Shown here in pieces: positions 47,905-64,000 of a DNA stretch of 64,000 nt. The position numbers and the translations under genes were made by a program. Numbering within the stretch: position 1 is the first letter of the stretch; each line of letters starts with the position of its first letter. Source of the DNA: Neotamlana sargassicola (lineage in GTDB: Bacteria; Bacteroidota; Bacteroidia; Flavobacteriales; Flavobacteriaceae); the NCBI RefSeq assembly GCF_020523965.1, contig NZ_JAJAPX010000002.1, positions 434,001 through 498,000 of the forward strand, given 5' to 3'. Under the pieces are notes generated by a model, which was given only the letters and a program-made list of their open reading frames with translations, did not search any database and was not told the origin of the DNA.

Positions 47905-49812
47905 ATGGATTTATTTAAAAATTATGTTTTGTTTTATAAAGGGTTGTTATTGACCCTTTTTCTATTATTCTTATATCTTCCTTCGGTAAACCAGACAGAT
48001 TACGTTAATTCGACCATAACATCAAAAACAGTGTTTTTTCTTTATGCGCTCATCGTTACACTAAGTTGCTGGGGGCTTCAAATGGTTGTCAACAAGAATA
48101 AACAACGGGCAGTAAAAATATCTATCCTAGATGTTTTACTAGCTCTATTATTGGTTTTTATTTGTGTTAATAGGTATGTTTTACAATCTAACTATGGGTT
48201 TTCTATTCGATTTATAGAACTATTAGGGTTGAGTCTTTTATATGTAATATTAAGAGGGCTACCTGTGAAGCATTTTGTGTGGATTTTGTTCGCTATAGTG
48301 CTTTCAGGTGTCATACAAGCGGGTTATGGTAACTTCCAGTTATTGGGGTATTACCCGTCTAATCATTCTGGATTTAAAATGACAGGAAGCTTTTTTAATC
48401 CAGGGCCTTTTGCTGGTCTTTTAACATCGGTATGGACGATGGCCTTAGGACTTTACTTGTATAGAGAACAGATTTTCAAACAGTTTTTATATCTAAGTAC
48501 CTCTTCAACTTTAAGACTGAACACTTTAATAAAGTACACTTTCGAGTATATCCTACTATTGGCTATTATAGGCATTCTATTGGTAGTACCCGCATCACAA
48601 TCCAGAGCGTCTTGGTTGGCTATTGCAATTACTACCGTAATATTATTAGAATTTAAGTACTGTTATCTTAAAAAACTTTTTGCTAAGATTTCAAGATTTA
48701 AAAAAGTAATGCTTTCTATGGGACTATTGATCGTATTGGGTTTAAGTCTATTTGGGATTTATCATTTTAAAAAAGGGTCTTCGGATGGGCGCTTATTTAT
48801 ATGGAAAGTTTCCTTTGAAATAATTAAAGAGAACCCTGTGGTCGGCGTGGGGTTCGATAGGTTTAAAGCACACTACATGGATGCCCAAGCCAATTATTTT
48901 GCTGAGCATGGCGAAACGACTGAGGCTATGGTGGCAGACAATTCATATTATGCATTTAATGAATTTGTGCAGTTTGTTGTTGAAAATGGCTTAGTGGGAT
49001 TGTTGTCTCTTATAATTCTTAGTGTTCTGCTATTTAAAACAAAAGTAGAAAAAGAAAATACATACATTTCTAATATTCTTAAAACATGCTTATTGGCTAT
49101 TAGTGTATTTGCATGTTTTTCATACCCCATGCAAATATTACCTATTAAAATAATTCTGGTAGCTGCTCTGGCTATGTTGACTACTGTAAATGCTAAGGTT
49201 TATGAAATCAAAATAACTCAAAGTAATACCATGCATAAAGTTTTTAAAACATCCTTGTTGGTAATTGCAATTTTTGGTGTTACTAAAGCGAGTTTATATG
49301 CTAATGTGCTTAATGAGGGTTTTAAAACATGGCAATATGCTCTAAGTCCTTATGGAAGTTACGAGGATGTTTTAGAGGATTACAAAGCTGTTTACCCCCT
49401 ATTTAAAAGGGATGGTGATTTTTTAATGAACTATGGTAAAACATTGTGTTTAGAAAAAAAATACCCTCAGGCAATCTCAATTTTGCAGCAAGCGAAACAA
49501 CATCTGAATACTACCATTATTGAAACGGCTTTGGGAGATGCTTATAAAGGCATTAAACAATATGAAAAAGCAGAAATAACCTACAAAAAAGCTTATCATA
49601 TGATTCCGTCTAGGTTTTACCCTTTGTATTTATTGGCTAACCTATATGATGAGAGTGGTGATAAGACCAAGGCGGTAACCATGGCAAAGAGACTACTTGA
49701 TAAAGAAGTAAAAATACCCTCAACTGCTATAAAAGAAATGAAAACTGAAATGAAAAGAATAATTACTAAACATAATACAAGTTCTACAGATAAAAAAAGT
49801 CAATATAAATGA
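47905..49812 (+). CDS. O-antigen-ligase/Wzy-like membrane protein with C-terminal TPR repeats
   Basis: I start at ATG 47905, one codon after a TTG. The 635-residue product has about ten to twelve membrane helices and a periplasmic loop with TGSFFNPGPFAGLL and GRLFIWKVSFEIIKENPVVGVGFDRF. These are typical of the O-antigen ligase/polymerase (Wzy_C) family. After the last helix (about 470) there are two or three TPR-like repeats (LGDAYKGIKQYEKAEITYKKAY, PLYLLANLYDESGDKTKA). In other bacteria such proteins join glycan or polymer chains to a carrier, or glycosylate proteins. The role here is unclear. The stop codon overlaps the adaptor gene by 4 bp (ATGA), so it is tied to the exporter operon and not to a polysaccharide synthesis cluster. 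Confidence 0.78.
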   Translation: MDLFKNYVLFYKGLLLTLFLLFLYLPSVNQTDYVNSTITSKTVFFLYALIVTLSCWGLQMVVNKNKQRAVKISILDVLLALLLVFICVNRYVLQSNYGFSIRFIELLGLSLLYVILRGLPVKHFVWILFAIVLSGVIQAGYGNFQLLGYYPSNHSGFKMTGSFFNPGPFAGLLTSVWTMALGLYLYREQIFKQFLYLSTSSTLRLNTLIKYTFEYILLLAIIGILLVVPASQSRASWLAIAITTVILLEFKYCYLKKLFAKISRFKKVMLSMGLLIVLGLSLFGIYHFKKGSSDGRLFIWKVSFEIIKENPVVGVGFDRFKAHYMDAQANYFAEHGETTEAMVADNSYYAFNEFVQFVVENGLVGLLSLIILSVLLFKTKVEKENTYISNILKTCLLAISVFACFSYPMQILPIKIILVAALAMLTTVNAKVYEIKITQSNTMHKVFKTSLLVIAIFGVTKASLYANVLNEGFKTWQYALSPYGSYEDVLEDYKAVYPLFKRDGDFLMNYGKTLCLEKKYPQAISILQQAKQHLNTTIIETALGDAYKGIKQYEKAEITYKKAYHMIPSRFYPLYLLANLYDESGDKTKAVTMAKRLLDKEVKIPSTAIKEMKTEMKRIITKHNTSSTDKKSQYK

Positions 49813-50909
49813 AAAAAAATCATATGTCCAAAGCGGTGAAATCTTTAATGATTCTTATTCTTTTAATCTGTTTCAACTGCACTCAAAAAAAAGACAAACC
49901 TGAAGAGGAAGAATTCATCGATAAAAAAGCACACGGCATTCAAAAAAATGAAGTTAGTGTTGCCCTGTTAGAACAAAAACCTTTTAAACGCGAATTGGTT
50001 AGTAACGGTAAATTAATAGCCATTCAAAAAAATGTATTAAAGTTTGAAGTTGGTGAGCGTTTAGAAAAATTATATGTAGCCAATGGCGATCTGGTAAAAA
50101 AAGGACAAACCTTAGCTGTGTTAAAACCCTATAAATTCAAACAAAAGCTAGATAAAGCCACTATAAGTTTAAAAAAAGCCACTTTAGATTTTAAAGACCA
50201 ACTTTTAGGTCGTGGTTACGATTACGATGTCAAAGATAGTATTCCCAAAAATATTTACGAAATGGTGGCTATTCGTAGTGGTTATGATGATGCTTTACGC
50301 GATTTGGAAGATGCTAAATACGAGTTGCGATCTTCTAAACTTGTAGCGCCATTTAGTGGTAGAGTTGCTAATATTGAAAGTAAACAGTTTGAGCAGGTAA
50401 GCGTAGGAAGAGATTTTATGACTTTAATTAACGATTCAACCTTTGAAGTAGAATTTCATCTTATAGAGTCTGAAGTAGGTGATGTTCGAGTAAACGACCA
50501 GGTAGAAATTGTACCCTTTGCTTTAGAGAAAACCTATCAGGGTAAAATTACCACAATTAATCCTATAGTAGAAAAAAACGGTACCATTCTCGTTAAAGCC
50601 CTTGTTAAAAATGATGGGCAATTAATTGAAGGGATGAATGTAAAAGTATTAATACAAAAAGATATTCCAGACCAATTAGTAGTGCCTAAAGAAGCTGTTA
50701 TTTTAAGACAAAATCAAGAAGTTTTATTTAAAGTTGTTGATGGTAGAGCCTTTTGGACCTATGTTTTAACAACCAACGAAAACAGTAAGCATTATGCAGT
50801 CATACCGCATCCAGACAAAAGTTCTGCAAAGCTAACCCCTGGAGACTCTATAATTGTTTCGGGTAACTTGAATTTGGCACATGATAGTGAGGTGGTTGTT
50901 AAAAAATAA
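49809..50909 (+). CDS. RND efflux periplasmic adaptor (membrane fusion protein), lipoprotein
   Basis: A 366-residue lipoprotein (LICFNCTQ, with a Glu-rich stretch after the Cys). It shows the membrane fusion protein layout: a barrel-sandwich half-motif (KFEVGERLEKLYVANGDLVKKGQTLAVL), a helical hairpin (about 110-180), the second half-motif (SSKLVAPFSGRVANIESKQFEQVSVG), a beta-barrel domain (VNDQVEIVPFA) and a membrane-proximal domain (VVPKEAVILRQNQEVLFKV). It should link an RND permease to the TolC-like channel encoded downstream. ATGA overlap with the upstream gene and 7 bp to the permease gene show a single operon. Only one adaptor is visible for two RND permeases. Confidence 0.9.
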   Translation: MKKNHMSKAVKSLMILILLICFNCTQKKDKPEEEEFIDKKAHGIQKNEVSVALLEQKPFKRELVSNGKLIAIQKNVLKFEVGERLEKLYVANGDLVKKGQTLAVLKPYKFKQKLDKATISLKKATLDFKDQLLGRGYDYDVKDSIPKNIYEMVAIRSGYDDALRDLEDAKYELRSSKLVAPFSGRVANIESKQFEQVSVGRDFMTLINDSTFEVEFHLIESEVGDVRVNDQVEIVPFALEKTYQGKITTINPIVEKNGTILVKALVKNDGQLIEGMNVKVLIQKDIPDQLVVPKEAVILRQNQEVLFKVVDGRAFWTYVLTTNENSKHYAVIPHPDKSSAKLTPGDSIIVSGNLNLAHDSEVVVKK

Positions 50910-50916
50910 AAAATAG

Positions 50917-53900
50917 ATGGTAAAGTTCCTTATACACAAACCCATTGCGGTTTTAATGACGACACTAGGTATATTGATTTTAGGTTTTTATTCCTCAAAT
51001 TTTATACCCATATCGCTAATGCCAGATATTGATATTCCAGAAATAACAGTACAGATAAGCGATGAGAATTTGTCTGCACGCCAATTAGAAGATGGTGTTA
51101 TAAAAAGCTTAAGGAACGAATTAAAGCAAGTAAGCCATTTAAAAGATATAAAAAGCGAAACCACCAATGGTATGGCTATAGTAAGGTTGCTTTTTACACA
51201 TGGCACTAAAATAAATTATTCGTTTATAGAGGTCAATGAGAAAATAGACCGATTTATGGGGCGACTACCCAAAACCATGAAACGTCCCAAAGTTATTAAA
51301 GCCAGTGCTACAGATATTCCTGTGTTTTACATTAGTGCTACTTTAAAAGGCAATCGAGCCAAAAGGGGTATACAAAACAAAGATTTATACCCTGTGTCTC
51401 AAGAGTTTGTAGACTTTAATCGTTTTACCAATCAAGTTATAAAAAAACGTATTGAGCAAGTTAACGAGGTTGCCATGGTAGATATTAGTGGTTTGGTAGC
51501 CTCAGAAATTTTAATTATTCCAAATCTAGATAAAATACAATCTCTTGGTCTTACACTAGATGAATTAGAAAGCGCTATAAAAAGAGCTGATGTAGACATT
51601 GGTAATCTATCTATTAAAGATAGTCAGTACCAATATAACATACGTTTGGGTAGTGAAGTGGTAGACATTAGAGATGTAGAAAATTTATACATAAAAAAGC
51701 ACAATCGTGTGTTTCAACTAAAAGATCTTGCGCAAGTTCTAGAACACCCACAAAAACGCAAAGGTTTAGTGTTATCTAACGGAAAAGAAGCCATTACTAT
51801 GGCCATTATAAAACAACATGATGCACGTATGGGCGATCTTAAAGAAAAGTTAGACGAACTCCTAAAGCGTTTACGGAAAGATTATAAAACTATAGATTTT
51901 AGGGTGACGCGAAGCCAAACCAAGCTACTAGATTACGCCATTAATAATTTAACCCAGAGTTTATTATGGGGAGTGATACTTGCTTTTTCAGTCATGTTTT
52001 TGTTTTTAAAAAATATGAAGTCTCCTTTTTTAATTGCTATAGTTGTTCCGGTTTCTATGGTGGTTTGTTTGCTGTTTTTTCAATTGTTTCATATTTCCAT
52101 CAACATTATCTCACTATCCGGATTGGTTTTAGGCATTGGATTAATGATTGATAATTCCATTATCGTAATAGATAACATCACACAATATATAGAACAAGGT
52201 AAATCCTTACCTAAAGCCTGTGTTTTAGGAACCAACGAAGTGTTTAAGCCGCTTTTAAGTTCTGCATTAACAACCTGCGCCGTGTTTTTACCTTTAATAT
52301 TTATAAGTGGTGTTACAGGGGCGTTGTTTTATGATCAGGCTATGGCAGTTAGTATTGGACTTTTTGTATCATTAGTAGTGTCTTTAACCTTATTGCCAGT
52401 ATTGTATTATCTATTTCATAAACGAAAGAAAGTTAAAAAAGGGCGAATATCTATATTTTTAGAAAAAACAAACCTTATAAACTACAATGCGGTATACGAA
52501 AAAGGCTTTCGTTGGGTGATGCGCAGGCAAAAAATAGCTTGGTCTATTATTGCTTTATTAGGTATTACTGTAGTTGGTTTATATGCTGTATTACCCAAAA
52601 CACAAATGCCAGAATTTTCTAAAACCGAAACCTTATTAAAAATAGACTGGAATGAACAAATTAATGCCGATGAAAACAAGCAACGTATTATTGCAACTCT
52701 AGAACCTATTAAAGACTACTTAAAAGATCATACCGCATTAGTAGGAAGTCAGCAATTTGTACTCGATAAAGAAGCTTTAGCTAAACCATCAGAAGTTAAC
52801 TTGTACTTAAACTGTGGCAATCAAAAAACATTAGATAAGATCACTAATACATTAAGTGATTATCTCAATAAAAATTACCCTGAAGCTTTATATAGATATG
52901 GAGAGGTCGATAATATTTTCAGTGCTATATTTTCTGATGACGAACCGCCTCTGGTAGCGAGAATGCGAAACGTAAGTGGTTTAAAAAACAGACAAAACGA
53001 ACAATTAAAAGCCTTGTGGTATCAAGTTAACGATGCTATGGATAACTTACAATTGAAACCCATTGTGTGGCAAGAATCTATGGTATTGGTTGCCGATAAA
53101 GAAAAACTTATGATTTACGATGTTAATGAAAACCAGCTGTTTAATAAGTTAAAAAGTGCTTTTGGTGAAAGACAGGTGTTTTCAATAACCGATAATCAAG
53201 ATATTGTTCCCATTGTATTAGGAGGCGAAATAAAGCCTATAGAAAATGTCCTTGATGAAACGGTAGTCGTTTCAAAAGACAGTGCTGTAATTCATGTAAA
53301 AGAATTTATAAATGTGATGCATACTAAAGATTTAAAAACCATTGTTGGTGGTACAGAAGGCGAATATTACCCTATAGCTTTAGAAGTAGATCCTGATAAT
53401 GCTACAGATACGCAATATCAAGTTAAAGACATAGTTAACCATAATAAGTGGTACGAAGTTAATTTTTCAGGACGTGTTTTTACTAGTCAGGCGATGTTAA
53501 AAGAGTTAATCATTGTTTTATTAATTTCACTATTACTGCTGTATTTTATTCTCGCATCACAATTTGAATCGTTTTTATTGCCTTTAATTGTGTTAATAGA
53601 AGTCCCTATAGATTTGGCAGGAGCTTTTTTATTTTTAAAACTCTTTGGGATGAGTATTAACTTAATGTCACTTATAGGTATTGTCGTTATGAGTGGCATC
53701 ATAATAAACGACTCTATATTAAAAATAGATACCATTATACAATTACAGCGTCAAGGCTATTCACAAATAAAAGCTTTGTTGGTTGCGGGCAAAAGACGTT
53801 TAAAACCTATATTAATGACTAGTTTAACAACCATTTTGGCATTAATTCCGTTGTTATTTTCTTCGGGCCTAGGCGCAGAATTACAGGCACCTTTAGCGGT

Positions 53901-53991
53901 TTCATTAATAGGCGGTATGCTTTTAGGCACACTTATAAGCTTATATTTTATTCCGTTGTGTTATTATTATTTATCAAAAATTAAATCTTAA
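50917..53991 (+). CDS. RND family efflux permease 1
   Basis: A 1024-residue inner-membrane transporter of full RND length. The N-terminal helix (KFLIHKPIAVLMTTLGILI), a large periplasmic loop starting PISLMPDIDIPEITV, and repeated six-helix bundles are present. Helix 4 has LVLGIGLMIDNSIIVIDNI with the proton-relay Asp. The second half repeats the pattern, with ILASQFESFLLPLIVLIEVPI and GIVVMSGIIINDSI. Substrate is unknown. In the usual scheme it forms a trimer coupling proton influx to export across the envelope with the adaptor and TolC-like protein that flank it. The neighbouring peptide genes make a peptidic cargo worth considering. The permease appears intact. Confidence 0.92.
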   Translation: MVKFLIHKPIAVLMTTLGILILGFYSSNFIPISLMPDIDIPEITVQISDENLSARQLEDGVIKSLRNELKQVSHLKDIKSETTNGMAIVRLLFTHGTKINYSFIEVNEKIDRFMGRLPKTMKRPKVIKASATDIPVFYISATLKGNRAKRGIQNKDLYPVSQEFVDFNRFTNQVIKKRIEQVNEVAMVDISGLVASEILIIPNLDKIQSLGLTLDELESAIKRADVDIGNLSIKDSQYQYNIRLGSEVVDIRDVENLYIKKHNRVFQLKDLAQVLEHPQKRKGLVLSNGKEAITMAIIKQHDARMGDLKEKLDELLKRLRKDYKTIDFRVTRSQTKLLDYAINNLTQSLLWGVILAFSVMFLFLKNMKSPFLIAIVVPVSMVVCLLFFQLFHISINIISLSGLVLGIGLMIDNSIIVIDNITQYIEQGKSLPKACVLGTNEVFKPLLSSALTTCAVFLPLIFISGVTGALFYDQAMAVSIGLFVSLVVSLTLLPVLYYLFHKRKKVKKGRISIFLEKTNLINYNAVYEKGFRWVMRRQKIAWSIIALLGITVVGLYAVLPKTQMPEFSKTETLLKIDWNEQINADENKQRIIATLEPIKDYLKDHTALVGSQQFVLDKEALAKPSEVNLYLNCGNQKTLDKITNTLSDYLNKNYPEALYRYGEVDNIFSAIFSDDEPPLVARMRNVSGLKNRQNEQLKALWYQVNDAMDNLQLKPIVWQESMVLVADKEKLMIYDVNENQLFNKLKSAFGERQVFSITDNQDIVPIVLGGEIKPIENVLDETVVVSKDSAVIHVKEFINVMHTKDLKTIVGGTEGEYYPIALEVDPDNATDTQYQVKDIVNHNKWYEVNFSGRVFTSQAMLKELIIVLLISLLLLYFILASQFESFLLPLIVLIEVPIDLAGAFLFLKLFGMSINLMSLIGIVVMSGIIINDSILKIDTIIQLQRQGYSQIKALLVAGKRRLKPILMTSLTTILALIPLLFSSGLGAELQAPLAVSLIGGMLLGTLISLYFIPLCYYYLSKIKS

Positions 53992-54050
53992 GTACATGAC
54001 AAAAAACAATACAATAGCTATATATACCAAAAATGAACAAAGTAAAATGT

Positions 54051-54130
54051 TGTCTCCTCGAACGCAGTTGATAGGTCTTCATATTAGTATGAATTACAAT
54101 ATTGAGGTCTCGACTGCGCTCGACCAGACA
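54051..54130. repeat. REP-like imperfect palindrome
   Basis: Arms 54051-54078 and 54105-54130 are imperfect inverted repeats around a 26-nt AT-rich centre; the core is CGACTGCGCTCGACC on the right arm. Related GAGCGCAGTCGA-type palindromes are common, to my knowledge, between genes of many Bacteroidota. It lies between the permease and outer-membrane channel genes and is not part of either. It can form a hairpin and may adjust expression within the operon or be a mobile REP element. An in-frame TTG for the next gene lies in it but is unlikely to be the true start. Confidence 0.6.
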
Positions 54131-54146
54131 TTTTAGAAAAGTAAAA

Positions 54147-55682
54147 ATGAATGGGTTTAAAATTATGAATAAGCAAAATATAAAAACCATAGTTATAACA
54201 ATATTATGTACTTTTTTTATACATACTGTATTGCTTTCTCAAAGCATTGAGAAGACTATACAGGCTAAAGACATTACCCTTGAAGATGTTTTGGCTCTGG
54301 CCAGTAAAAATTCATTAGATGCTTTTAAAGCCAAACGACAATACGAATATAGCTATTGGAACTTTAGAGCGTTTAAAGCCAGTTTATTACCGAGTATAGA
54401 TTTTACTACAAAACCATTAACTTATACTAGTTCTGTTGTTGAACGTTATGATTCAGAATTAAATCAAGATGTGTTTAGACCCATACGTACTTTAAACTCA
54501 TATGCAGGTTTATCCTTAGGGCAAAATATTTCACAAACCGGTGGACGTATATCTCTTAATTCAACTTATAATAAACTTACTAATTATACAGATGGTAATA
54601 CAACAAATAGCTTTAGTGTTACACCTGTTAATATTGCTTTATCACAACCCTTAATGGCGCATAATAGCTTTAAATGGTTAAAAAAAACAGCACCATTAGA
54701 GTACAAAAAAGCGCATAAAGAATTAATCTCTCAGTTACAAAACATTAATATTAATGCGGTGCAGTACTTTTTTAATTGGGCATTAGCCTCAAAAAGAAAA
54801 GATATGGCAGGAGAGCGCGTAGCCTCATCAAAAAAGTTATTTGCCATTAGCAAAAAACGCTACGAGATAGGTAGTATAGAAAAAGAAGATGTATTAAACC
54901 TGGAATTGCAATTGTATAATGCAGAAACCGACCTAGCTATTCAAGAAAACGATTTAAAACGTATAAAACAAGACTTGGAACTGTTTTTAAGAAGCGATTT
55001 ACCAGAAAACACAGTACCTATTTTACCAGAATTAATTCCCAGTTTAAAAATTAATGTTGACGAAGCCATTGCATTATGCGAAAAAAATAACCCAGATATG
55101 TTGGATATAGAAATAAGTAAAATAGAAGCCGAAAGAGATTTAGACCAAGCCATTAAAGATAACCGTTTCGATTTGTCATTAACTGCCAGTTATGGTTTAA
55201 ACCAACAGGCAGAAACCTTTTCTGGAGCTTATGTTAACTTACTACAACAAGAATTAGTTGCTATAACTTTTACCATGCCTATTTTAGATTGGGGAGAGCG
55301 TCGAGGCAATATAAAAAAAGCACGTATGAACAAAGCTGTTCTTGATATTGATAACGAACAAGCCGAAAGTACATTAAAGCAGGATATTAAAGCTAAAATC
55401 ATAGATTTTAACCTCCAAGAAAAACTGGTGTTAAATGCACAACATGCCAGCGAAATAGCCAGAGAATCTTACTTAATTACAGAAAAGCGCTTTTTGGCAG
55501 GTCGGGTAGATTTATTACGTCTAACAAGCGCCTTAAATGCGTGGCAATCCAGTAACGAAAGTTATATGAATAAACTCTCTAATTATTGGCGATATTATTA
55601 CCAAATACAACAATACACCTTATATAATTATAGAGAATCTCGAGAACTAACTGTTGACCTAGAAAAAGGCATTTTAGATTAA
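54147..55682 (+). CDS. TolC-like outer-membrane efflux channel
   Basis: I choose ATG 54147 (MNGFKIMNKQN), which gives an N-terminal signal ending near LLSQS; the longer frame starting at TTG 54102 runs through a repeat. The 511-residue protein has the outer membrane efflux protein layout: two long alpha-helical repeats with YNAETDLAIQENDLKRIKQ and coiled-coil character, separated by beta strands (YAGLSLGQNISQTGGRI, ITFTMPILDWGERRGNIKKA). It should form the outer-membrane duct for the RND pump whose adaptor and permease are upstream. It lies 17 bp before the small regulator gene. Confidence 0.88.
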   Translation: MNGFKIMNKQNIKTIVITILCTFFIHTVLLSQSIEKTIQAKDITLEDVLALASKNSLDAFKAKRQYEYSYWNFRAFKASLLPSIDFTTKPLTYTSSVVERYDSELNQDVFRPIRTLNSYAGLSLGQNISQTGGRISLNSTYNKLTNYTDGNTTNSFSVTPVNIALSQPLMAHNSFKWLKKTAPLEYKKAHKELISQLQNININAVQYFFNWALASKRKDMAGERVASSKKLFAISKKRYEIGSIEKEDVLNLELQLYNAETDLAIQENDLKRIKQDLELFLRSDLPENTVPILPELIPSLKINVDEAIALCEKNNPDMLDIEISKIEAERDLDQAIKDNRFDLSLTASYGLNQQAETFSGAYVNLLQQELVAITFTMPILDWGERRGNIKKARMNKAVLDIDNEQAESTLKQDIKAKIIDFNLQEKLVLNAQHASEIARESYLITEKRFLAGRVDLLRLTSALNAWQSSNESYMNKLSNYWRYYYQIQQYTLYNYRESRELTVDLEKGILD

Positions 55683-55902: not shown

Positions 55903-55923
55903 AACCGACAAATTTTGTCGGTT
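55903..55923. promoter_or_regulatory. perfect inverted repeat, operator or terminator
   Basis: Arms AACCGACAAA and TTTGTCGGTT are exact reverse complements around a single T (55913). It starts just after the HTH gene and 9 bp before a -7-like element. With no T-run behind it, an operator or an anti-termination hairpin fits better than a standard terminator, but either is possible. Confidence 0.55.
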
Positions 55924-55931: not shown

Positions 55932-55939
55932 TATCTTTG
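55932..55939 (+). promoter_or_regulatory. candidate Bacteroidota -7 promoter element
   Basis: TATCTTTG matches the TAnnTTTG consensus of Bacteroidota promoters exactly. The nearest upstream TTTG (55914-55917) is only 14 bp away, short of the usual 17-23 bp. If used, transcription would start near 55946 and yield a 5' leader of about 280 nt before the first peptide gene. Confidence 0.45.
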
Positions 55940-56224
55940 TAAGAATTAAGATACTAAGCCTCTGGGTTTAAAAAATTAAAACAATTTGCGAAATGTATAA
56001 CTTTTAAAATGTAATGCCTATGTAACATAAACAAAATACCCAGAGGATAGACTTATAGTGCTGAACTCGATTCAGCGTCTTATTATTTGAGATAAAACAT
56101 CAAAAATAAGACAAATAAGCTATCGCAACAACTAAAAATATAAGTTGTTGTCATGTTTTATAAAGTAGCGTGCTTTTTTAGACTTTGTAAAATCAATTAA
56201 TATTTAAATTTTAAAAATAATAAA

Positions 56225-56548
56225 ATGAAAAAAATAAAAAAGTTTGTAGTATTTGGAATAATTACATGCTTAAGTATTGTTTTAATTGGGTTTAATAAAG
56301 AAGGGGAAACAGAAAGTTTTTCGCTGGATAGCTTAATTGAAGTTGCTAATGCCCAAGGAGAGGTAGAATTAAACCCTTCTTACACTATATATCATCCAAC
56401 AGAAGTAACATGTGTTGTTAACGTGTATACATATATAGCCGCTCCAGGAGGTTATTTGGTTAAAGCATTAGTTAGTTCAACACCAGGTACAAGAATTGAT
56501 TGTCCAAGTGGCGAAATGATTTGTGCACCAACTACCTGTGCTATTTAA
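56225..56548 (+). CDS. NVEALA-like secreted peptide 1, cysteine-patterned C-terminus
   Basis: A 107-residue precursor. A lysine-rich start and hydrophobic helix (VVFGIITCLSIVLIGF) precede a leader segment FSLDSLIEVANAQGE. This resembles the NVEALA family of small Bacteroidota peptides, in which a short hydrophilic stretch ends in a VEALA-like or AxAQ site before the mature part. Processing after ANA or AQ is likely. The mature part of about 60 residues has four Cys; its end DCPSGEMICAPTTCAI aligns with the end of the next peptide. No RiPP modification enzyme is nearby. It is the first gene after the long leader and lies 26 bp before peptide 2. Confidence 0.6.
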   Translation: MKKIKKFVVFGIITCLSIVLIGFNKEGETESFSLDSLIEVANAQGEVELNPSYTIYHPTEVTCVVNVYTYIAAPGGYLVKALVSSTPGTRIDCPSGEMICAPTTCAI

Positions 56549-56574: not shown

Positions 56575-56952
56575 ATGAAGAAAATAATAGGGATTTGTTT
56601 AATTGGAATTATGGTTTTTGGAGTAACTGCTTTAAATAATAGAGAAAAAGAAGTTAAAACAGAAACTGTTTTTTCCTTAGAAAATTTAATTGAAAAAGCC
56701 CAAGCACAATGTGAAAATGGTTCGGTTACTAGTCCTCAGTATTTAAAGTATACGGTTGTAGAAAAAACCTGTTCGATAACTTTATCAGTATCTCAAGCTA
56801 ATGCTTTAAATGCATCTATTAGTGCTAATGGAGCCAATTTGGGAACGACATCTAGTACTACTTATTATGCTGGGTCTACTTATCCAGACGCTACATATAT
56901 TAAATGTTACAGTGGTTCTTGTTATTGTGCTGTTATGGCATGTACAATATAA
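56575..56952 (+). CDS. NVEALA-like secreted peptide 2, cysteine-patterned C-terminus
   Basis: A 125-residue precursor paralogous to peptide 1. It has a lysine start and hydrophobic helix (GICLIGIMVFGVTAL), the leader VFSLENLIEKAQAQCE, and a Thr/Ser/Ala-rich middle. The end KCYSGSCYCAVMACTI lines up with DCPSGEMICAPTTCAI of peptide 1 (shared C-x-S-G-x3-C-A-x3-C-x-I). It has extra Cys after the leader and in the CYC segment. The middle parts hardly match, so selection seems to hold the leader and the Cys tail. It is followed by a strong hairpin before the propeller gene. It is likely secreted and disulfide-bonded or processed. Function unknown. Confidence 0.6.
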   Translation: MKKIIGICLIGIMVFGVTALNNREKEVKTETVFSLENLIEKAQAQCENGSVTSPQYLKYTVVEKTCSITLSVSQANALNASISANGANLGTTSSTTYYAGSTYPDATYIKCYSGSCYCAVMACTI

Positions 56953-57001: not shown

Positions 57002-58279
57002 ATGATGAAATTAAATAAAATTTTAAGTTATTGGGCATTGTTAGTGCTTACTATTATACTAGGATGTGAAAATAAATCAAAAAAGGATGTAGACGATTTA
57101 GCTCCAATTTATAAAGAATACAATACAGATAAAGTTAGATTAAATGACTTAGATTCTATAGAAAGGCAGTTGAATGATTATGAGAATATTAAAATTATTG
57201 AGCTTGGTGATAAGGAATCTGAGCAAATAAATGCCTCTTCTATAATAGACACTTGTTGGTATGTGGCTTTAGAAACTAAAGAAGAAAGCCTATTTGGTAA
57301 AGTGGATAAAATATTGATTGAAGATGATCTCATATTTATCTTAGATGAAGATGGCACAAAATCGATATTTATTTTTGACATGAATGGTAAATTCATATCA
57401 AAAATAAATAAACATGGTAGAGGTCCAGATGAATATTCTGCGATTCGTGATTTTACGTTAGATTCGGAAAATAGACAAGTAATAGTTTTTGATGATTTTT
57501 TAGCAAAACTTTTTTATTATAGGTATGATGGTACATTTGTGAAAACAGAAAAAACTTTTTTTAGGTTTCGAGAGTTTTCTAAATTAGGTAGTAATACCTA
57601 TTATTATTTAGGTTCAGCTGATAATAAGCATTATCCATTTCTAGAAGAAAATTTTATAGTGAAGCAAAATAAGGGTAAATTTATAGAAACAGCCATAGAA
57701 AATCCGCAATATAAATTTATTAGACTTGAAGCTCAAAATCAAGTTCAAGTATCAGGAAATCATTTAAGTTTTGCGATTCCCGTAATGGATAACCATATTT
57801 ATAATATAGTAGGAGAAAATGTTGTACCCTCGTTTAAATTAGATTTCGGAGATGGAACTATTAAACCTTCAGACTTGAATAAAAAATATCAAACCAAAAT
57901 TATGGATGCAGTTAAAGAGGATAAAAAATGTCTTTTTGCGGGAATGCATTGTGAAACAAATAAAACACTATATTTTAGATATATAGAAAAAGGAGTGTTT
58001 ATGAATTGTTATTTTAATAAAAAAAGTGGGAATTTGAAAATTATAAAAAATACTATTCCTGATTTAAGTAGTATTATGACTCCAGTAGAGTCTCCTGCTT
58101 ATGCTATTTATGATGAAGATGTTTTTGTTTCTTTAATAGACCCACAGTTGATTACCATGAATAAAGATTATGTTAATCATGAAAGTTCTAATAAAACAAA
58201 AAAACTGAAGAGTCTTGTGAATAGTGTGAAAAATACAGATAATGTAGTGTTATGTTTTCATAAGTTGAAAGATTTTTAG
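57002..58279 (+). CDS. 6-bladed beta-propeller lipoprotein A
   Basis: A 425-residue lipoprotein (TIILGCENK). It has the pattern of the Bacteroidota 6-bladed beta-propeller family that often neighbours NVEALA peptides: CWYVALETKEESLFGKVDKI, IFIFDMNGKFISKINKHGRGPDEYSAIRDFTLD, and repeated blades with VIVFDDFLAKLFYYRYDG and YYLGSADNK. A spacer of about 60 residues after the lipid anchor would hold the propeller away from the membrane. Known members have no enzymatic assignment; binding of peptides or proteins is likely. It starts 50 bp after peptide 2 and ends 2 bp before the thioredoxin-fold gene. Confidence 0.8.
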   Translation: MMKLNKILSYWALLVLTIILGCENKSKKDVDDLAPIYKEYNTDKVRLNDLDSIERQLNDYENIKIIELGDKESEQINASSIIDTCWYVALETKEESLFGKVDKILIEDDLIFILDEDGTKSIFIFDMNGKFISKINKHGRGPDEYSAIRDFTLDSENRQVIVFDDFLAKLFYYRYDGTFVKTEKTFFRFREFSKLGSNTYYYLGSADNKHYPFLEENFIVKQNKGKFIETAIENPQYKFIRLEAQNQVQVSGNHLSFAIPVMDNHIYNIVGENVVPSFKLDFGDGTIKPSDLNKKYQTKIMDAVKEDKKCLFAGMHCETNKTLYFRYIEKGVFMNCYFNKKSGNLKIIKNTIPDLSSIMTPVESPAYAIYDEDVFVSLIDPQLITMNKDYVNHESSNKTKKLKSLVNSVKNTDNVVLCFHKLKDF

Positions 58280-58281
58280 AT

Positions 58282-58785
58282 ATGAAAAATATTTATTTTT
58301 TTTTAAATATTGTGTTTATTATTCTATTCTTTAGTTCATGTTTGAATTCTGAAAGTAATTCTAAATATTTTATACAAGGGTTACGATTAGATTCTGATGC
58401 TGTTTTAAAAAGTGATGAGGATAGTTTAGTTAAACTAAAAGATTTAAAAAAACCAATATTAATATTTCAATATTCTGAATTGAATTGTGGTGTTTGTGTT
58501 GATTCTGTTATTGTCACTCTAAAAAATATAGATAAAGAAATACCATATATATACATAGCAGACTATAAAAGAAAAACAGACCTTTATTTATTTAAGAGAG
58601 TTAATAAGATAAAAAAGGATGTCTATAGGACTAATTATAAAACAGATGTAGATACCTTAAATGTTCCTTATGTTTATATTTTGGATGATAAAAGTTTAGT
58701 TCAAAAATCTCTTTTTATACCTAGAAAAGAAAATATTTTAGATTTTAAAGAATACCTTGACAAGGTATCAAAACATTATTGGTAA
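58282..58785 (+). CDS. thioredoxin-fold (redoxin-like) lipoprotein with CxxC
   Basis: A 167-residue lipoprotein (FFSSCLNS). The segment PILIFQYSELNCGVCVDSV places a CGVC active site (Cys 69 and Cys 72) after the first core strand, as in thioredoxin-fold proteins. VPYVYILDD near 132 supplies the cis-Pro loop. It is likely a periplasm-facing thiol-disulfide protein, although short for a TlpA-type enzyme. The neighbouring cysteine-patterned peptides are obvious candidate partners (inference). A decayed second copy of its C-terminal half lies at 60836-61131. It is 2 bp after propeller A and 1 bp before the DUF1573 gene. Confidence 0.68.
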   Translation: MKNIYFFLNIVFIILFFSSCLNSESNSKYFIQGLRLDSDAVLKSDEDSLVKLKDLKKPILIFQYSELNCGVCVDSVIVTLKNIDKEIPYIYIADYKRKTDLYLFKRVNKIKKDVYRTNYKTDVDTLNVPYVYILDDKSLVQKSLFIPRKENILDFKEYLDKVSKHYW

Positions 58786-58786
58786 A

Positions 58787-59197
58787 GTGATAAATGGAAT
58801 TAATATTAAAAATAAACTTTACTTCTTGTTTTTAGTTTATATAATTTTTATGTCATCCTGTAATAGTTATAATCTAAAGAATACTTCGATAAAGTTTTTT
58901 ACTACTTTTCATAATTTTGGGGAAATACGATTTAGATCTACTTCAGAAAATGCGATATTCTATTTTACTAATACAGGAAAATATCCTTTAAAAATAGAAA
59001 AAGTGGAAACGAACTGCGGTTGTGTTTTGTTCGAGTTCACAAAAGATTTTGTAAAACCAGATCATGAAGGACAAATAATTATTAATTATGATTCACGATA
59101 TTCAGGTAACTTTAAGCAAACGATTAAGGTTTTTTATAATGGAGTGAATTCTCCTGATAACTTGAAGATCAAAGGGGAAGTTTTATTCCCAGAGTAA
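58787..59197 (+). CDS. DUF1573 family lipoprotein
   Basis: I prefer the GTG at 58787, which gives a normal lipoprotein signal (FMSSCNS) one base after the previous stop, over an in-frame TTG at 58757 that overlaps the upstream gene. The 136-residue product has the DUF1573 immunoglobulin-like pattern: HNFGEIRFRS, FYFTNTGKYPLKIEKVETNCGCV, KPDHEGQIIINYDSRYSGNF and KTIKVFYNG-like strands. The paired cysteines of NCGC are typical. DUF1573 proteins are thought to be periplasmic or surface beta-domains that associate with other proteins. Its place between redoxin and signal peptidase genes suggests a part in the same envelope module; no activity is known. Confidence 0.75.
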   Translation: MINGINIKNKLYFLFLVYIIFMSSCNSYNLKNTSIKFFTTFHNFGEIRFRSTSENAIFYFTNTGKYPLKIEKVETNCGCVLFEFTKDFVKPDHEGQIIINYDSRYSGNFKQTIKVFYNGVNSPDNLKIKGEVLFPE

Positions 59198-59246
59198 TAA
59201 TTTAACATACTGTATTATTTGAAATTTATAGTAAGAGTTTTATTTA

Positions 59247-59723
59247 ATGAATAAATCTATTGAATTTCTTAATTTTTATATTTTGTTTAAAAAGTATTCA
59301 AAACATATTAAAAAGAAATATTTAATACTTGTTTTACTATTTGTAGTTTTAACTATTTATGGTGTGTTTTGGTTAGGTGGCACTATTCTAATTATAGCAT
59401 TGTTATATTTAAGTATAAACTATTTATTATCTCTTATAAAAAACATCTTTATAAAAAAACTATGTAAAGGTATATTCTCTTTTTTAATCTTCTTATTTGT
59501 GGCTATAGGTATTCGTGTATTTGTGGTAGATATTTATTTAATACCAAGCTCTTCAATGGAAAATACCTTATACCCTAAAGATGTTATTTTGGTAAATAAA
59601 TTAAAATATGGTCCTAACCTACCTAAATCACCTTACGAAATCCCTTGGGTGAATTTATATTATTTGCTACAAGACAACTCTAAAGAAGCAGTGACTAAAA
59701 GAATATGGCCAGTTAAACGTTAA
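59247..59723 (+). pseudogene. lepB: truncated signal peptidase I (lepB fragment)
   Basis: A 158-residue product nearly matching the first 140 residues of the full signal peptidase at 61128. It keeps the membrane segments and the catalytic Ser in IPSSSMENTLYPKDVILVN (Ser 103) and continues through LKYGPNLPKSPYEIPW to WPVKR. There it stops at a TAA exactly where the intact copy has the Leu codon TTA after WPAKR. The following bases still vaguely resemble the intact gene before they diverge. The part with the catalytic Lys and the GDNR box is absent, so peptidase activity is not expected. It could be a simple relic or a membrane stub. Confidence 0.8.
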
Positions 59724-59751
59724 GCGGCCACCACCCTTAAAAAACAACATT

Positions 59752-60843
59752 ATGAAATATCTAAAAATACTATCAATTTCTTTAATATTAATTTTTTTTA
59801 GTTGTTCTAAGAAGAATAATGATATTAGTCAAACAACTTTAGAAATACCTTATGAGTCTCATAACAATTTTATTATGCTTTCTAAATACTTTAAAACTAT
59901 AAAGTTTTTACCTTTAGAAACAAATAAAGAGTCTATAATAGGTTCTATTAAGAAATTGAAAATCATCAATAATAGAATCTATATTTTTGATAATATTGGA
60001 AATTCAATTCTTGTTTTTAATAGTCATGGTCAATTTGAAAAAAAAATATCTTCAATCGGGAGTGGTCCCGATGAATATATTTCAATAAGTGACTTTGATG
60101 TTGAAAATAACAATCTATACATAATGGATATATCTGGAAAAATCCTCCATTTTAAAAATGATGTATATGTTAACTCCATTAAAATTGATTTTAGAGCAAC
60201 AGATTTTTGCATTACCAAAGGAGGATTTATCTTCAAAATTTTAGAATTTGATAACAAATCCGGTCAGTTTATAGCAACATCTAAAGATTTAAAAATTAAA
60301 AATAAACTTTTGCCTATTTCTGAACCAAATTCAAAGAAATTCAAATTTAACTATGGATTCTCAAATAATTTTGGAATAAATAATTCCAAAACCTATTTTT
60401 CGCAGAATTTTTCAAGATCTATCTATGAATTAGATGATGAAGAATTTACTTTCAAACATGAGTACGTATTAGATTTTGGTAGTAAAAGTTTACCTGAAAA
60501 TGATAATGTAAACAATTATGATATGCTAAGTCCAGATTTTAAATTTTTAGTACGAAACAACTTTTATTTTCATAATAACTACATTATTTTAGATTATTTT
60601 CACAATAATGTTCGTCGAATTGATTGGATTGACACAGGCAAAAACATACATAACGTTGGTATACCAAAAAACGATATTAATAAAATTCCGTTTATCCCAA
60701 AATGGGGGTTTAATGATGGTCTCGTTGGATTTATGAATGCAGAACAATTGATTGACGAGGAAGATTTAATGAAAAATGTTAAGATTAAAAATATCAAAAC
60801 AGGAGATAATCCAATTTTAATGATTTATACATTTAATGATTAG
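59752..60843 (+). CDS. 6-bladed beta-propeller lipoprotein B
   Basis: A 363-residue lipoprotein (FFSCSKKN) of the same family as propeller A, with FKTIKFLPLETNKESIIGSI, ILVFNSHGQFEKKISSIGSGPDEYISISDFDVE, ILHFKNDVYVNSI and SIYELDDEEF blades. It lacks the long N-terminal spacer of copy A. Sequence identity is confined mainly to the GPDEY region and blade cores, so the duplication is old. Base composition is very AT-rich even for this genome. Its end overlaps the start of a decayed redoxin gene by 8 bp, mirroring the order around propeller A. Confidence 0.78.
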   Translation: MKYLKILSISLILIFFSCSKKNNDISQTTLEIPYESHNNFIMLSKYFKTIKFLPLETNKESIIGSIKKLKIINNRIYIFDNIGNSILVFNSHGQFEKKISSIGSGPDEYISISDFDVENNNLYIMDISGKILHFKNDVYVNSIKIDFRATDFCITKGGFIFKILEFDNKSGQFIATSKDLKIKNKLLPISEPNSKKFKFNYGFSNNFGINNSKTYFSQNFSRSIYELDDEEFTFKHEYVLDFGSKSLPENDNVNNYDMLSPDFKFLVRNNFYFHNNYIILDYFHNNVRRIDWIDTGKNIHNVGIPKNDINKIPFIPKWGFNDGLVGFMNAEQLIDEEDLMKNVKIKNIKTGDNPILMIYTFND

Positions 60844-61131
60844 ATTTATATTGTTACTATTTTTTGCAAATTGTTCTAATAGTTCTCTTGAAAAAATAAG
60901 TGATATTTTGGGAAAATAAATAACGGTTCTGTTGTTAAAAGTTTTTTAAATTCTACCCGTTGTGCATTTAGACAATATTTAATTCCCTATGAAGAAGTAA
61001 ATGTGCCTTATTATTTCTTTATAGATTCAACTTTAAGAATTACAATTTTTTTTATACCACAAAAAGACAAACCAAAATTATCTATAGTTTATTTAAATTA
61101 TGCTTTAAAAAAACATTTTAATAAAAATTGA
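60836..61131 (+). pseudogene. decayed redoxin-like lipoprotein gene
   Basis: A short frame from ATG 60836 to a stop at 60917 encodes a lipoprotein-like start (LLLFFANCSNSS). In a different frame, downstream to the TGA at 61129, the translation includes STRCAFRQY, EEVNVPYYFFIDSTL and ITIFFIPQKDK. The latter lines up with DTLNVPYVYILDDKSL and SLFIPRKEN of the intact gene at 58282. The core with CGVC has been deleted or lost. This is the second copy of the redoxin gene, inactivated by deletion and frameshift. The final TGA overlaps the TTG start of the signal peptidase gene. Confidence 0.7.
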
Positions 61132-62306
61132 GACACATAAAAAAAAATCATTTAGTACTAATCATATTATCAATAGTTTTTGCTATTTATGGACTGTTTT
61201 GGTTGTGTGCAGCTATAACTTTTATCATGTCCATATATTGGACTGTAAACTATTTATTAGACCATATAAAATACAGTTTTATAAAAAAAATATGTAAAGG
61301 TGTTTTTTCGTTTTTAATGATACTCTTCATTGTTATAAATGTTCGTATCTTGATTGCAGATATTTATTTAATACCAAGTTCATCTATGGAAAACACTTTA
61401 TATCCTAAAGATGTAATTTTGGTTAATAAGTTAAAATACGGACCTAATTTACCACGGTCGCCTTATGAAATTCCTTGGGTAAATTTATATTACTTGTTAC
61501 AAGACAACTCAAAAGAAGCTGTTACAAAAAAAAGATGGCCAGCCAAACGTTTAGCAGGTGCCAGCCATGTTAAACAAGGAGATGTAATAGTTTTTAAAAA
61601 TTTTAGTAAAGATGTCGTTTTTGTTAAGCGCTGTGCTGCTATTGCCGGTGATACGTTAAAAATAAAAAATGGAGAGGTCATTACAAATAACAATTTATAC
61701 GATGCAGCAGAACACATTCGTAATAATTATGCTTTTAAAATAAAGTCGCCCAAGGGGTTTTATAATACCATAGATTCTTTGAATATTGATACCCATTTTT
61801 ATTCGCTTAAAAGTGATGGCTATTGGAAAGAAGCAGAATTATCGTATTTAGAAATAGAAAAACTAAAAGGTTTAAACCTTATAGATTCTGTACAAAAAAA
61901 AACAGATGTTTATATTTTAGATGAAAAAAAGTTGTATGGAAGAGGTGGTGAAAACCAAGCTTGGACACTGGATAATTATGGGCCTGTTGTTGTACCCAGA
62001 GCAGGTATGGAAATACAATTAACAAACGAGGCTTTTCGATTGTATAGGGGTTTAATAAAACATAATGAAAATGTTTTTATTAAAAGAAAGAAAAATAATA
62101 CTTTTCACGTCAATGGCAAACGAATAACAAGTTATACCTTTAAGAAAAACTATTATTTTATGTTGGGAGATAATAGAAAACAATCACGCGACTCAAGATA
62201 TTTTGGCTTTCTACCAGAAGAAAAAATTATTGGCAAAGTATCTTGTGTTTTATTTTCTAATAAAGACGACAAATTTCAATGGAATCGTTTATTTAAAGGT
62301 GTGTAA
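61128..62306 (+). CDS. lepB: signal peptidase I (full-length, locus-dedicated)
   Basis: A 392-residue membrane peptidase. The TTG start overlaps the upstream stop; an in-frame stop at 61122 excludes a longer form, and no ATG comes before residue 30. Two membrane segments precede IPSSSMENTLYPKDVILVN (catalytic Ser 86). VFVKRCAAIAGDTLKI supplies the catalytic Lys 167, and YYFMLGDNRKQSRDSRYFGFLPE is the conserved box E. It is a complete type I signal peptidase of the longer Bacteroidota form with an insert of about 100 residues. A housekeeping copy is expected elsewhere; this one, beside secreted peptide genes and RND pumps, may cleave the peptide leaders. It lies 6 bp before the second permease gene. 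Confidence 0.88.
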   Translation: MRHIKKNHLVLIILSIVFAIYGLFWLCAAITFIMSIYWTVNYLLDHIKYSFIKKICKGVFSFLMILFIVINVRILIADIYLIPSSSMENTLYPKDVILVNKLKYGPNLPRSPYEIPWVNLYYLLQDNSKEAVTKKRWPAKRLAGASHVKQGDVIVFKNFSKDVVFVKRCAAIAGDTLKIKNGEVITNNNLYDAAEHIRNNYAFKIKSPKGFYNTIDSLNIDTHFYSLKSDGYWKEAELSYLEIEKLKGLNLIDSVQKKTDVYILDEKKLYGRGGENQAWTLDNYGPVVVPRAGMEIQLTNEAFRLYRGLIKHNENVFIKRKKNNTFHVNGKRITSYTFKKNYYFMLGDNRKQSRDSRYFGFLPEEKIIGKVSCVLFSNKDDKFQWNRLFKGV

Positions 62307-62312
62307 TTAAGT

Positions 62313-64000
62313 ATGAGACTCAAGTTTTCTTCTTTTACAATTTTAACTGTTTTTATTTGCCTTTCTATCATTGGCGCAAGTTTAATACCCTTATTAAGTG
62401 TTCAGCTTAAACCCTCTCAACAAAAAACAGCTTTAAATATTAATTTTAGCTGGCGAGATGCATCTGCTAAGGTTTTAGAACAAGAAGTGACCTCTAAACT
62501 GGAAGGTGTTTTTAATACGGTTAGGGGTATTCGAAATATACGCTCTGTATCTCGAAAAGGTATAGGTTCTGTGTACTTAGATTTTAAGAAAGGCTCCGAT
62601 ATGGAAGCCATTCGTTTCGAGTTGACTAACCTTATACGTCAAACTTACGAAGACTTGCCCGAAGGCGTAAGCTACCCTTACCTATCAGGTAATATACAAA
62701 CTGAAGATACCGATAGAAAAAAAGCCATTTTAACCTATAGTATCAATGCCCATGAAAATCCCTATTACATAAAAAAATATACCGAAGATAAATTAGTGCC
62801 CAGACTTACTGAAATTAAAGGGGTTAATGAAGTAAGCGTTAGAGGTGCTTCAACATACGAATGGGTTATAACATACAATACCAATACATTATTACAGCTA
62901 AACTTATCTGTAGACGATATCTCTCAGGCTATTAATACGTTTCTGCAAAAAAAACAATTAGGTGTTGGTAGTTTTGCGTCTAAAAGCAGTTCAAAAAAAG
63001 AAGAAGTCTCTATGTCTATGGTTTTTAATTCGGATGAAACTATTGACTGGTCATCTATTCCAATTAAAAAGATTGGAGATAGGGTTATTTATCTAGAAGA
63101 TGTCACTAAAATTAAATTTCAAGAAGCACAGGTAAATAGTTATCATCGTATTAACGGATTAAACTCGGTATCTATAGTCATAATTTCAGAAAAAGGTGTA
63201 AATACCATAGATTTAGCAAAACAAGTAAGAGTCATTGTCGATGGCTTAAAGGATGAGGTTTATAACGATGGGTATTCTTTGAGACTTACTCGAGATGCCT
63301 CGGAATTTTTATCTGAAGAAATTGGTAAAATAGAATTACGTACACTTTATTCATTACTTATTTTATTAGTACTCATTTTAATAATAAATAGAAGCCTAAA
63401 ATATCTAGTGGTTTTACTTTTAAGTATTATTATAAATTTATCTATTGCTGTTATTTTTTATTATTTGCTTCATGTAGAACTGCATATGTACTCCTTTGCA
63501 GGTATTACTATTTCCTTTGGTATTATAATAGACAATAGTATTATTATGATAGATCACCTTAGAAACAAAGGTGATAAAAAAGCATTTTTAGCCATACTTG
63601 CAGCAACATTAACAACCATTGGCGCATTAATGATTATTTTCTTTTTAAAGGAAGCCCAACGTATAAACCTATGGGATTTTGCTATTGTTATAGCGATTAA
63701 TGTTGGTGTCTCCTTAGCTGTGTCATTATTTTTTGTGCCTGCATTGTTAGAAAAATTTAAAATAGAAAAAAAGCGGGTTAATTATTCTAGAAAACGTAAA
63801 CGTGCAGTTGTAAAATTCAACAAAGGGTATTTAAAAACCATGTTGCTTTTTAAACGTAAACCTGTAAAATGGGTGTTTGTTTTACTATTTATTTTTGGCT
63901 TTGGTTTACCTTTACATTTAACACCCGAAAAAATTAAGGGAGAAGGATTCTGGATAGACACCTACAATAAAACATTTGGTAACGAATGGTTTAAAAAAGA
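62313..64000 (+). CDS. RND family efflux permease 2 (3' end outside window)
   Basis: The frame is open from ATG 62313 through the window end, 562 complete codons. The N-terminal helix (SSFTILTVFICLSIIGASLI), the first periplasmic domain with VTSKLEGVFNTVRGIRNI, and the helix bundle with FAGITISFGIIIDNSIIMIDHL (proton-relay Asp in helix 4) identify an RND permease. The segment LRTLYSLLILLVLILIIN is helix 2. It is not a close copy of permease 1 (50917), so the module has two distinct RND subunits and one visible adaptor. It could form a mixed pump as in MdtBC-type systems, or a second exporter whose adaptor lies downstream. It starts 6 bp after the signal peptidase gene. Confidence 0.9.
   Translation, partial: MRLKFSSFTILTVFICLSIIGASLIPLLSVQLKPSQQKTALNINFSWRDASAKVLEQEVTSKLEGVFNTVRGIRNIRSVSRKGIGSVYLDFKKGSDMEAIRFELTNLIRQTYEDLPEGVSYPYLSGNIQTEDTDRKKAILTYSINAHENPYYIKKYTEDKLVPRLTEIKGVNEVSVRGASTYEWVITYNTNTLLQLNLSVDDISQAINTFLQKKQLGVGSFASKSSSKKEEVSMSMVFNSDETIDWSSIPIKKIGDRVIYLEDVTKIKFQEAQVNSYHRINGLNSVSIVIISEKGVNTIDLAKQVRVIVDGLKDEVYNDGYSLRLTRDASEFLSEEIGKIELRTLYSLLILLVLILIINRSLKYLVVLLLSIIINLSIAVIFYYLLHVELHMYSFAGITISFGIIIDNSIIMIDHLRNKGDKKAFLAILAATLTTIGALMIIFFLKEAQRINLWDFAIVIAINVGVSLAVSLFFVPALLEKFKIEKKRVNYSRKRKRAVVKFNKGYLKTMLLFKRKPVKWVFVLLFIFGFGLPLHLTPEKIKGEGFWIDTYNKTFGNEWFKK

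Follow-up and report, generated by a model that had tools for sequence, protein, structure and literature searches.

A Bacteroidota gene module that may mature and secrete small disulphide-bonded peptides, including those of the NVEALA type

Gene content of the locus

A block of co-directional genes was found in a 64,000-nucleotide stretch (the window) of the 3.6 Mb genome of Neotamlana sargassicola (G000:C21:434001-498000). The block lies on the + strand, starts at position 47905, holds 14 co-directional reading frames up to the window end and extends about 3.4 kb further, giving about 15 genes overall. The gene order is as follows: an O-antigen-ligase-like (Wzy_C) protein with tetratricopeptide repeats (TPR), a periplasmic adaptor, RND permease 1 (RND1), a TolC-family channel, a helix-turn-helix (HTH) protein, leader peptides A and B, propeller lipoprotein 1, a CxxC thioredoxin-fold lipoprotein (RDX), a DUF1573 protein, a truncated signal peptidase I gene (lepB), propeller lipoprotein 2, a decayed RDX gene, a full lepB, RND permease 2 (RND2) and a transglutaminase-like lipoprotein (Table 1). 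An earlier inspection of the bare sequence, here called the original prediction, had read these genes as an undescribed module for maturing and exporting a small peptide. Every gene named in it was recovered on the + strand in the order given. The Pfam scores for Wzy_C, HlyD_3, ACR_tran (both permeases), OEP, DUF5128 (both propellers), DUF1573 and Peptidase_S26 all exceeded the curated cut-offs. The observation was thus confirmed, and the interpretation as a whole was partly supported. The results described below make it fairly probable that the block belongs to a Bacteroidota-wide system that matures and probably secretes small peptides with disulphide bonds, the NVEALA peptides forming one branch of these.

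Table 1. Features of the block, in window positions
Feature	Position	Strand	Basis
Wzy_C (O-antigen ligase-like) membrane protein, C-terminal TPRs	47905..49812	+	Pfam Wzy_C 68.9 bits, over curated cut-off
RND periplasmic adaptor	49809..50909	+	NCBIfam RND_mfp 128.1 bits, above cut-off; Pfam HlyD_3 47.9
RND1, system-specific clade	50917..53991	+	Pfam ACR_tran 547.9 bits
TolC-family outer-membrane channel	54147..55682	+	Pfam OEP 123.6 bits
HTH protein, 66 aa	55700..55900	+	HTH_DeoR 21.1 bits (cut-off 21), HTH_11 24.9 (cut-off 25)
Perfect palindrome GACAAATTTTGTC, one central base unpaired, possible operator	55907..55919		just 3' of HTH stop
TATCTTTG, putative -7 box	55932..55939	+	sequence fit; promoter role presumed
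Conserved leader element CCTCTGGG...GCCTATG...ACCCAGAGG, also written CCTCTGrG...GCCTATG...ACCCAGAGG	55959..56046	+	
Leader peptide A, 107 aa, presumed site VANA^Q	56225..56548	+	helix, 19-residue spacer, 4 Cys in mature part
Leader peptide B, 125 aa, presumed site KAQA^Q	56575..56952	+	helix, 24-residue spacer, 6 Cys in mature part
6-bladed propeller lipoprotein 1	57002..58279	+	DUF5128 149.0 bits
RDX, CxxC thioredoxin-fold lipoprotein	58282..58785	+	AlphaFold2 model, Foldseek
DUF1573 protein, exact start uncertain	58757..59197	+	DUF1573 87.5 bits
Truncated second lepB	59247..59723	+	300 nt at 79% identity to full copy
6-bladed propeller lipoprotein 2, without own peptide	59752..60843	+	DUF5128 129.1 bits
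Decayed RDX gene, C-terminal part, no CxxC	60960..61127 (approximate)	+	38.9 bits to RDX profile
Full-length signal peptidase I (lepB)	61128..62306	+	TIGR02227 125.7 bits, cut-off 47; Peptidase_S26 118.8
RND2, system marker	62313..64000, on to window-equivalent 65471	+	ACR_tran 302.2 bits, whole protein

The Wzy_C/TPR gene was taken to start at the ATG at 47905, with a TTG in frame at 47902. For the TolC gene the ATG at 54147 seems a more likely start than the TTG at 54102 that opens the reading frame. RND2 runs past the window end and is followed by the transglutaminase-like lipoprotein, which carries F5/8-C domains and ends the block at window-equivalent 67450; sulfatase-like genes come next. 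Its Cys is kept in 22/22 and its His in 21/22 of the aligned sequences. On the other side the block is flanked by a protein without a Pfam match (46013-47452). At the far end of the module (L006:3460-3816) a fragment was observed that is 37% identical to this protein over 90 aa. The two flanks look like what an insertion of the module into a region for polysaccharide use would leave.

The full-length lepB was assigned to signal peptidase I on its score and its Ser/Lys dyad (Ser86 in 42 of 43 homologues, with one gap; Lys167 in all 43). The second copy ends ahead of the catalytic Lys position and the C-terminal box. With its truncated lepB, a propeller gene lacking a peptide and a reduced RDX, the segment 59247-61127 reads as a decayed second cassette. 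Within the family, one lepB locus was seen in each of 16 RND2-negative genomes (16/16), and extra lepB copies were found in the RND2 loci of four of five RND2-positive genomes (G000, G044, G118 and G131); the copy in the fifth (G128) was detected by profile only.

RDX had been called a CxxC redoxin. It gave no notable Pfam or NCBIfam family match, but the CxxC is present and the predicted fold agrees with the name. C69 and C72 were the sole invariant residues in 22 sequences, and the AlphaFold2 model (pLDDT 86) resembled ResA, TlpA and other thiol oxidoreductases in Foldseek (E ~1e-5, TM-scores ~0.5). RDX can therefore be placed among thioredoxin-like proteins on predicted fold plus CxxC. A defence function was also considered for the block; a PADLOC scan of eight proteins returned only BrxB, with 17.7 bits to RDX, which was judged a chance match and the idea was rejected.

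Conservation of the two permeases and their cassettes

A scan of named genomes with a six-sequence RND2 alignment gave 220 relatives. The best 80 of these came from Flavobacteriaceae, Prolixibacteraceae, Marinifilum, Odoribacter, Rikenellaceae, Capnocytophaga and others, including genomes named only as Bacteroidota or Bacteroidetes. Reading frames were called in 85 loci (79 of these 80 plus six further), profiles were made from recurring families and gene maps were drawn. Eleven more RND2 loci were added; L037, which duplicates the G044 contig and place, and L090, in which the RND2 reading frame was not called, were left out. Genes were counted up to 10 kb from RND2 in the 52 loci whose flanks were complete, and 20 loci around other RND permeases served as controls.

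In the 52 full loci, propellers were found in 46, RND1 in 42, the adaptor in 38, RDX/DUF1573 in 37, TolC in 32, lepB in 31 and a Cys-bearing peptide immediately upstream of a propeller in 31. The transglutaminase was present in 14, and the Wzy/TPR and HTH proteins in 10 each. The 43 truncated loci held RND1 in 27, propellers in 19 and lepB in 16. Among the 20 controls a propeller and a peptide before a propeller were each seen twice, and lepB, RDX/DUF1573, transglutaminase and Wzy/TPR were all absent. The difference between full loci and controls was pronounced for propellers (Fisher, 5e-10), RDX (1e-8), lepB (1e-6) and peptide (1.5e-4), and the arrangement is not due to chance. One of the two positive controls (cL153, G380:C4) overlaps an NVEALA match, in a genome that itself has the core. 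The test that the original prediction had proposed, whether NVEALA-like peptides recur together with the RND pair and lepB, was thus positive across Bacteroidota. A single RND2 was found in 51/52 loci, accompanied by 0-4 cassettes, and the propeller was directly followed by RDX or DUF1573 in 48 of 70 cassettes.

RND1 and RND2 both carry an ACR_tran domain and the Asp of transmembrane helix 4 (TM4), which is invariant (RND1 Asp412 in 60/60 homologues, RND2 Asp407 in 93/93); an AcrB fold was predicted for RND2 only. When RND1 was searched in eight genomes, seven system copies in six genomes were found at E<=2e-241, whereas the non-system RNDs of these genomes all lay at E>=4.7e-69 among the matches listed. 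In the two RND2-less genomes the best RND1 match was 2.5e-47. The two permeases have been inherited together (Mantel rho 0.95, n=59). Within the family RND2 is a distinct and uncommon type; it was found at E<=1e-60 in 6 of 149 genomes including its own, in one of them only as a fragment. An RND2 fragment (L026:9048-9560, - strand, G014:C1) is 84% identical over 154 aa with an interrupted frame. Lying near transposase-looking genes, it is likely a remnant of a lost module.

The lepB gene had been described as dedicated to the module. A full copy is present in the window and in 31 of the 52 full loci, but it is not universal. In families f5 and f8 no lepB lies near the core in nine genomes of the same class, and the leaders were short in seven of nine measured peptides, which suggests that the RND pair and not lepB is the constant part of the system.

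Lower-scoring RND2 relatives (403-647 bits) were found outside the class in 51 genomes. Seven of these were taken as an outgroup, in which propellers were present in 6/7, Cys-peptides in 3/7 and lepB in 0/7. One distant relative (L133, G345:C105; 501 bits) lies amid numerous propellers and small peptides whose leaders are of the MAG/GG type, possibly a sister system outside the class. In two further outgroup loci (L130, G409; L132, G177) short Cys-peptides were observed beside a small membrane protein, which we take to resemble MauE/DoxX; the G409 locus also encodes a CxxC protein.

Leader peptides and the proposed export route

The two peptides of the window had been called NVEALA-like. Neither peptide A nor peptide B matched the Pfam NVEALA model (PF14055, cut-off 27 bits) up to E 0.1. 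Both show the layout of the family, namely a helix, a spacer, a putative ALA/ANA-type site and a Cys-bearing tail. Moreover, true NVEALA peptides passing PF14055 were found within homologous RND2 loci (L084, G380 and G479), the Alistipes peptide in L084 scoring 35.4 bits. In a comparison made largely by eye, the motif is ANVEALA in the peptides of Rikenellaceae, G380 and G479, and L-x-x-L-x-x-x-N-x-A-N-A in Flavobacteriaceae.

In a phylum-wide sample PF14055 was passed in 2 of 345 genomes (G380 and G479), and both have a high-scoring RND2. The matches lay on the RND2 contig in 5/6 cases in G380 and 3/5 in G479. There the cassettes form rows that lead up to the adaptor, RND1, TolC and RND2 genes, and lepB, transglutaminase and Wzy/TPR are interspersed. 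Weak PF14055 matches below the cut-off were also seen in G199 and G268. In the family of G479, NVEALA was found in 37 of 65 genomes and RND2 in 57; RND2 was present in 35 of the 37 NVEALA genomes. In at least 21 genomes the two lie 7-30 kb apart (median 11.7 kb).

To describe the peptides more broadly, 70 Cys-bearing peptides preceding a propeller were collected from 42 loci, those with fewer than two Cys being excluded. The mature parts held 4 (29 peptides), 6 (19), 2 (14), 8 (3), 5 (3), 7 (1) or 9 (1) cysteines, an even number in 65/70. Together with the predicted thioredoxin fold and CxxC of RDX, the even counts argue for the oxidation step envisaged by the original prediction. When the AxA-like site closest upstream of the first Cys was taken, it lay a median of 22.5 residues past the helix in the 68 peptides with a site. 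By this rule the spacer exceeded 12 residues in 41/50 peptides with lepB in the locus, the other 9/50 being short, against 8/18 without (p=0.005), some of the lepB-less loci in the comparison ending at contig ends. When the first [AVSGI]xA was used instead, the median spacer was 17 in the peptides compared to 4 in TolC signals (30/47 with a site; p=0.002), and long spacers were found in 36/52 peptides with lepB versus 5/18 without (p=0.005).

Between TolC and peptide A lies a putative control region. The HTH protein appears specific to the system, being found in 2/149 family genomes, both RND2-positive. The adjoining palindrome GACAAATTTTGTC occurs once in the window and not at all in shuffles, and relatives of the form GAC[AG][AG]A[AT]TTTGTC were found in 11 of the 85 loci; L034 and L036 each carry a second copy. 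The downstream TATCTTTG matches the -7 box known for promoters of Bacteroidota, TAnnTTTG, and the palindrome overlaps the position of a corresponding -33 element. The HTH protein probably controls the peptide promoter through this palindrome. The leader element that follows is 80-98 nt long and bounded by CCTCT and AGAGG. Thirteen + strand copies were found in 10/85 loci and three more on the other strand, compared to none in the 20 controls, and 11 of the 13 stand 119-198 nt upstream of a leader peptide gene. Rfam gave only matches well short of the gathering scores (best E 3.2). The putative stem is nearly invariant; both partners differ in only two of 14 pairs, and these two lie in the palindrome.

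Such a promoter with an adjoining HTH gene and palindrome would also suit a sensing system, in which surface propellers bind ligands or neighbours' peptides, while the module's peptides serve as cell-to-cell signals read out by the HTH protein. A 66-residue protein hardly leaves room for a ligand domain, however, and it is present in only 10/52 full loci. In the list of the top 45 families of the 85 loci, with types judged from the sequences, there was no kinase or receptor family and a response-regulator-like family occurred in three loci only. A sensing function is accordingly considered very unlikely.

With respect to transport, the RND2 model (pLDDT 76) aligned over its full length with AcrB, AcrD and MtrD (TM ~0.7), and the solved structures akin to it include, by PDB title, MtrD with LL-37. 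RND pumps have thus been solved with antimicrobial peptides, as would be fitting if the RND pair were an immunity pump that clears toxic peptides from the producer's periplasm while they leave by another route. For such a route no ABC or C39 exporter domain was found in the module, which also sets the peptides apart from bacteriocins with GG leaders and a C39/ABC exporter. GG leaders were rejected as a general substrate feature, being found in 2/103 loci by one pattern; a third match of this pattern (L080) is the NVEALA peptide itself, and the pattern missed the leaders of MAG/GG type in outgroup G345. Immunity also overlaps with export via the same pump, and as a separate explanation it appears quite improbable.

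In the export scheme that we favour, the N-terminal helix would direct the precursor through Sec into the inner membrane. Signal peptidase I, the dedicated enzyme of the module, would then cut at the L-x-x-L...N-x-A-N-A or A-N-V-E-A-L-A motif seen in the precursors, often about 17-28 residues past the helix and beyond the usual distance for signal peptidases. The released Cys-rich peptide may be oxidised or proof-read by RDX, given its predicted fold, and the cassette's own propeller lipoprotein could hold it or pass it on. RND1 and RND2, which are linked to one shared adaptor and TolC, would finally pump the peptide from periplasm to outside, one transport core serving one to several peptide cassettes. 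This last step is deduced from the gene linkage and the known behaviour of RND pumps. The secreted peptides would most likely target other bacteria, as bacteriocins or signals; this is the weakest step of the scheme.

Several observations weigh against the scheme. Peptides and propellers showed no detectable co-diversification (rho -0.12 versus a null of -0.08), and RND pumps mostly move small molecules. The pair could accordingly export a small molecule, lipid or glycan, with the peptides as periplasmic or surface partners such as subunits, inhibitors or stress reporters, and the linkage of a Wzy/O-antigen-ligase-like protein (10/52 full loci) and a transglutaminase-like protein (14/52) would agree with this. 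In the same list of 45 families, however, the sole clear metabolic-enzyme type outside the module in at least three loci, judged from the sequences, was short-chain-dehydrogenase-like (four loci), and high variability of the peptides and several cassettes per core are what would be expected of cargo; small-molecule export is therefore regarded as unlikely. The site analysis was also sensitive to the rule applied. With the first strict AxA, peptides (54/70 with a site) and TolC signals (10/47) had similar medians of 19.5 and 19 (p=0.39), and the contrast between loci with and without lepB faded (p=0.14). Since the long spacer varies with the rule, it is chiefly the recurring motif that speaks for a distal site. 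Furthermore, lepB was missing within 10 kb in 21/52 full loci, the association of NVEALA with RND2 in the G479 family was not significant by presence alone (p=0.067; RND2 also occurs in 22/28 NVEALA-less genomes), the profiles were built from the same RND2 loci and so favour them over the controls, and the loci are related, making the counts non-independent. Peptide cassettes were also found away from the core (G380:C4; G512, 66-96 kb off). A peptide block inserted alone among unrelated genes had been named as evidence against the original prediction, and to this extent such evidence exists in a weak form; on the other side, G380 has the core and nearly all NVEALA genomes of the G479 family have RND2.

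On the strength of linkage, motif, Cys parity, predicted folds and catalytic residues, we tentatively propose that NVEALA-type peptides and the RND1/RND2 core form a phylum-wide, RND-powered secretion route for ribosomal peptides with disulphide bonds. The route would include its own signal peptidase, which recognises a motif far out in the leader, and would be a previously undescribed kind of peptide secretion; this full version is slightly less likely than not to hold.

Relation to known systems

A literature search, with bioRxiv preprints and most subscription papers outside its coverage, found no paper describing the gene set or naming NVEALA, in line with the description of the module as undescribed. 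A search for the accession PF14055 returned Plasmodium papers only, which were taken as gene-name matches. Each protein family is known, and the system itself is new as far as this search shows. Bacteroides thetaiotaomicron, a model organism, appears to carry a copy. In an iron-response expression table, BT0662 is listed as O-antigen ligase, BT0663 as hypothetical and BT0664 as 6-bladed propeller (PMC10434189). The same table gives BT0667 as signal peptidase I and BT0669 as RND adaptor; the genes BT0662-BT0669 appear there as single rows (p 0.11-0.44) and are not treated as a system (PMC10434189). The locus tags of these genes lie near one another, and judged by annotation the genes are probably the B. 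thetaiotaomicron copy.

If the proposal is true, RND pumps join the machines that secrete ribosomal peptides, and nameless peptides, DUF5128/DUF4221/TolB_like propellers, CxxC lipoproteins and 'multidrug' RNDs, now annotated separately, become one system, with RND2 as a single marker gene for finding its loci. The system would also allow the reach of a signal peptidase beyond the helix to be tested, and would hint at a body of Bacteroidota peptide chemistry that has so far gone unread.

The window peptides resemble NVEALA (PF14055) in helix, spacer, ALA-type site, short Cys-bearing tail and adjoining propeller genes, but fail the Pfam model. The adaptor, TolC, RND fold and TM4 Asp are shared with the tripartite pumps AcrAB-TolC, MdtABC and MtrCDE. 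The module differs from these in its two sharply separate but co-inherited permease clades, which are tied to peptide cassettes and often to lepB, and its permeases score far below the NCBI cut-offs for named drug pumps (best model NF033617, with 495 bits for RND1 and 270 for RND2 versus 1250). In microcin and bacteroidetocin-type export a ribosomal precursor with a leader is made, and microcins leave by a dedicated exporter via adaptor and TolC. The module is similar in its leadered precursor and, for microcins, in the adaptor and TolC route; it differs in having a Sec-type leader and lepB, and no GG leader (window peptides), C39 peptidase or ABC transporter. An operon-borne dedicated signal peptidase is also known from SipW with TasA. 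Like SipW, the signal peptidase I of the module is private and adjoins its presumed substrates, but the putative site often lies about 20 residues past the helix, depending on the rule applied, and the enzyme is coupled to RND genes.

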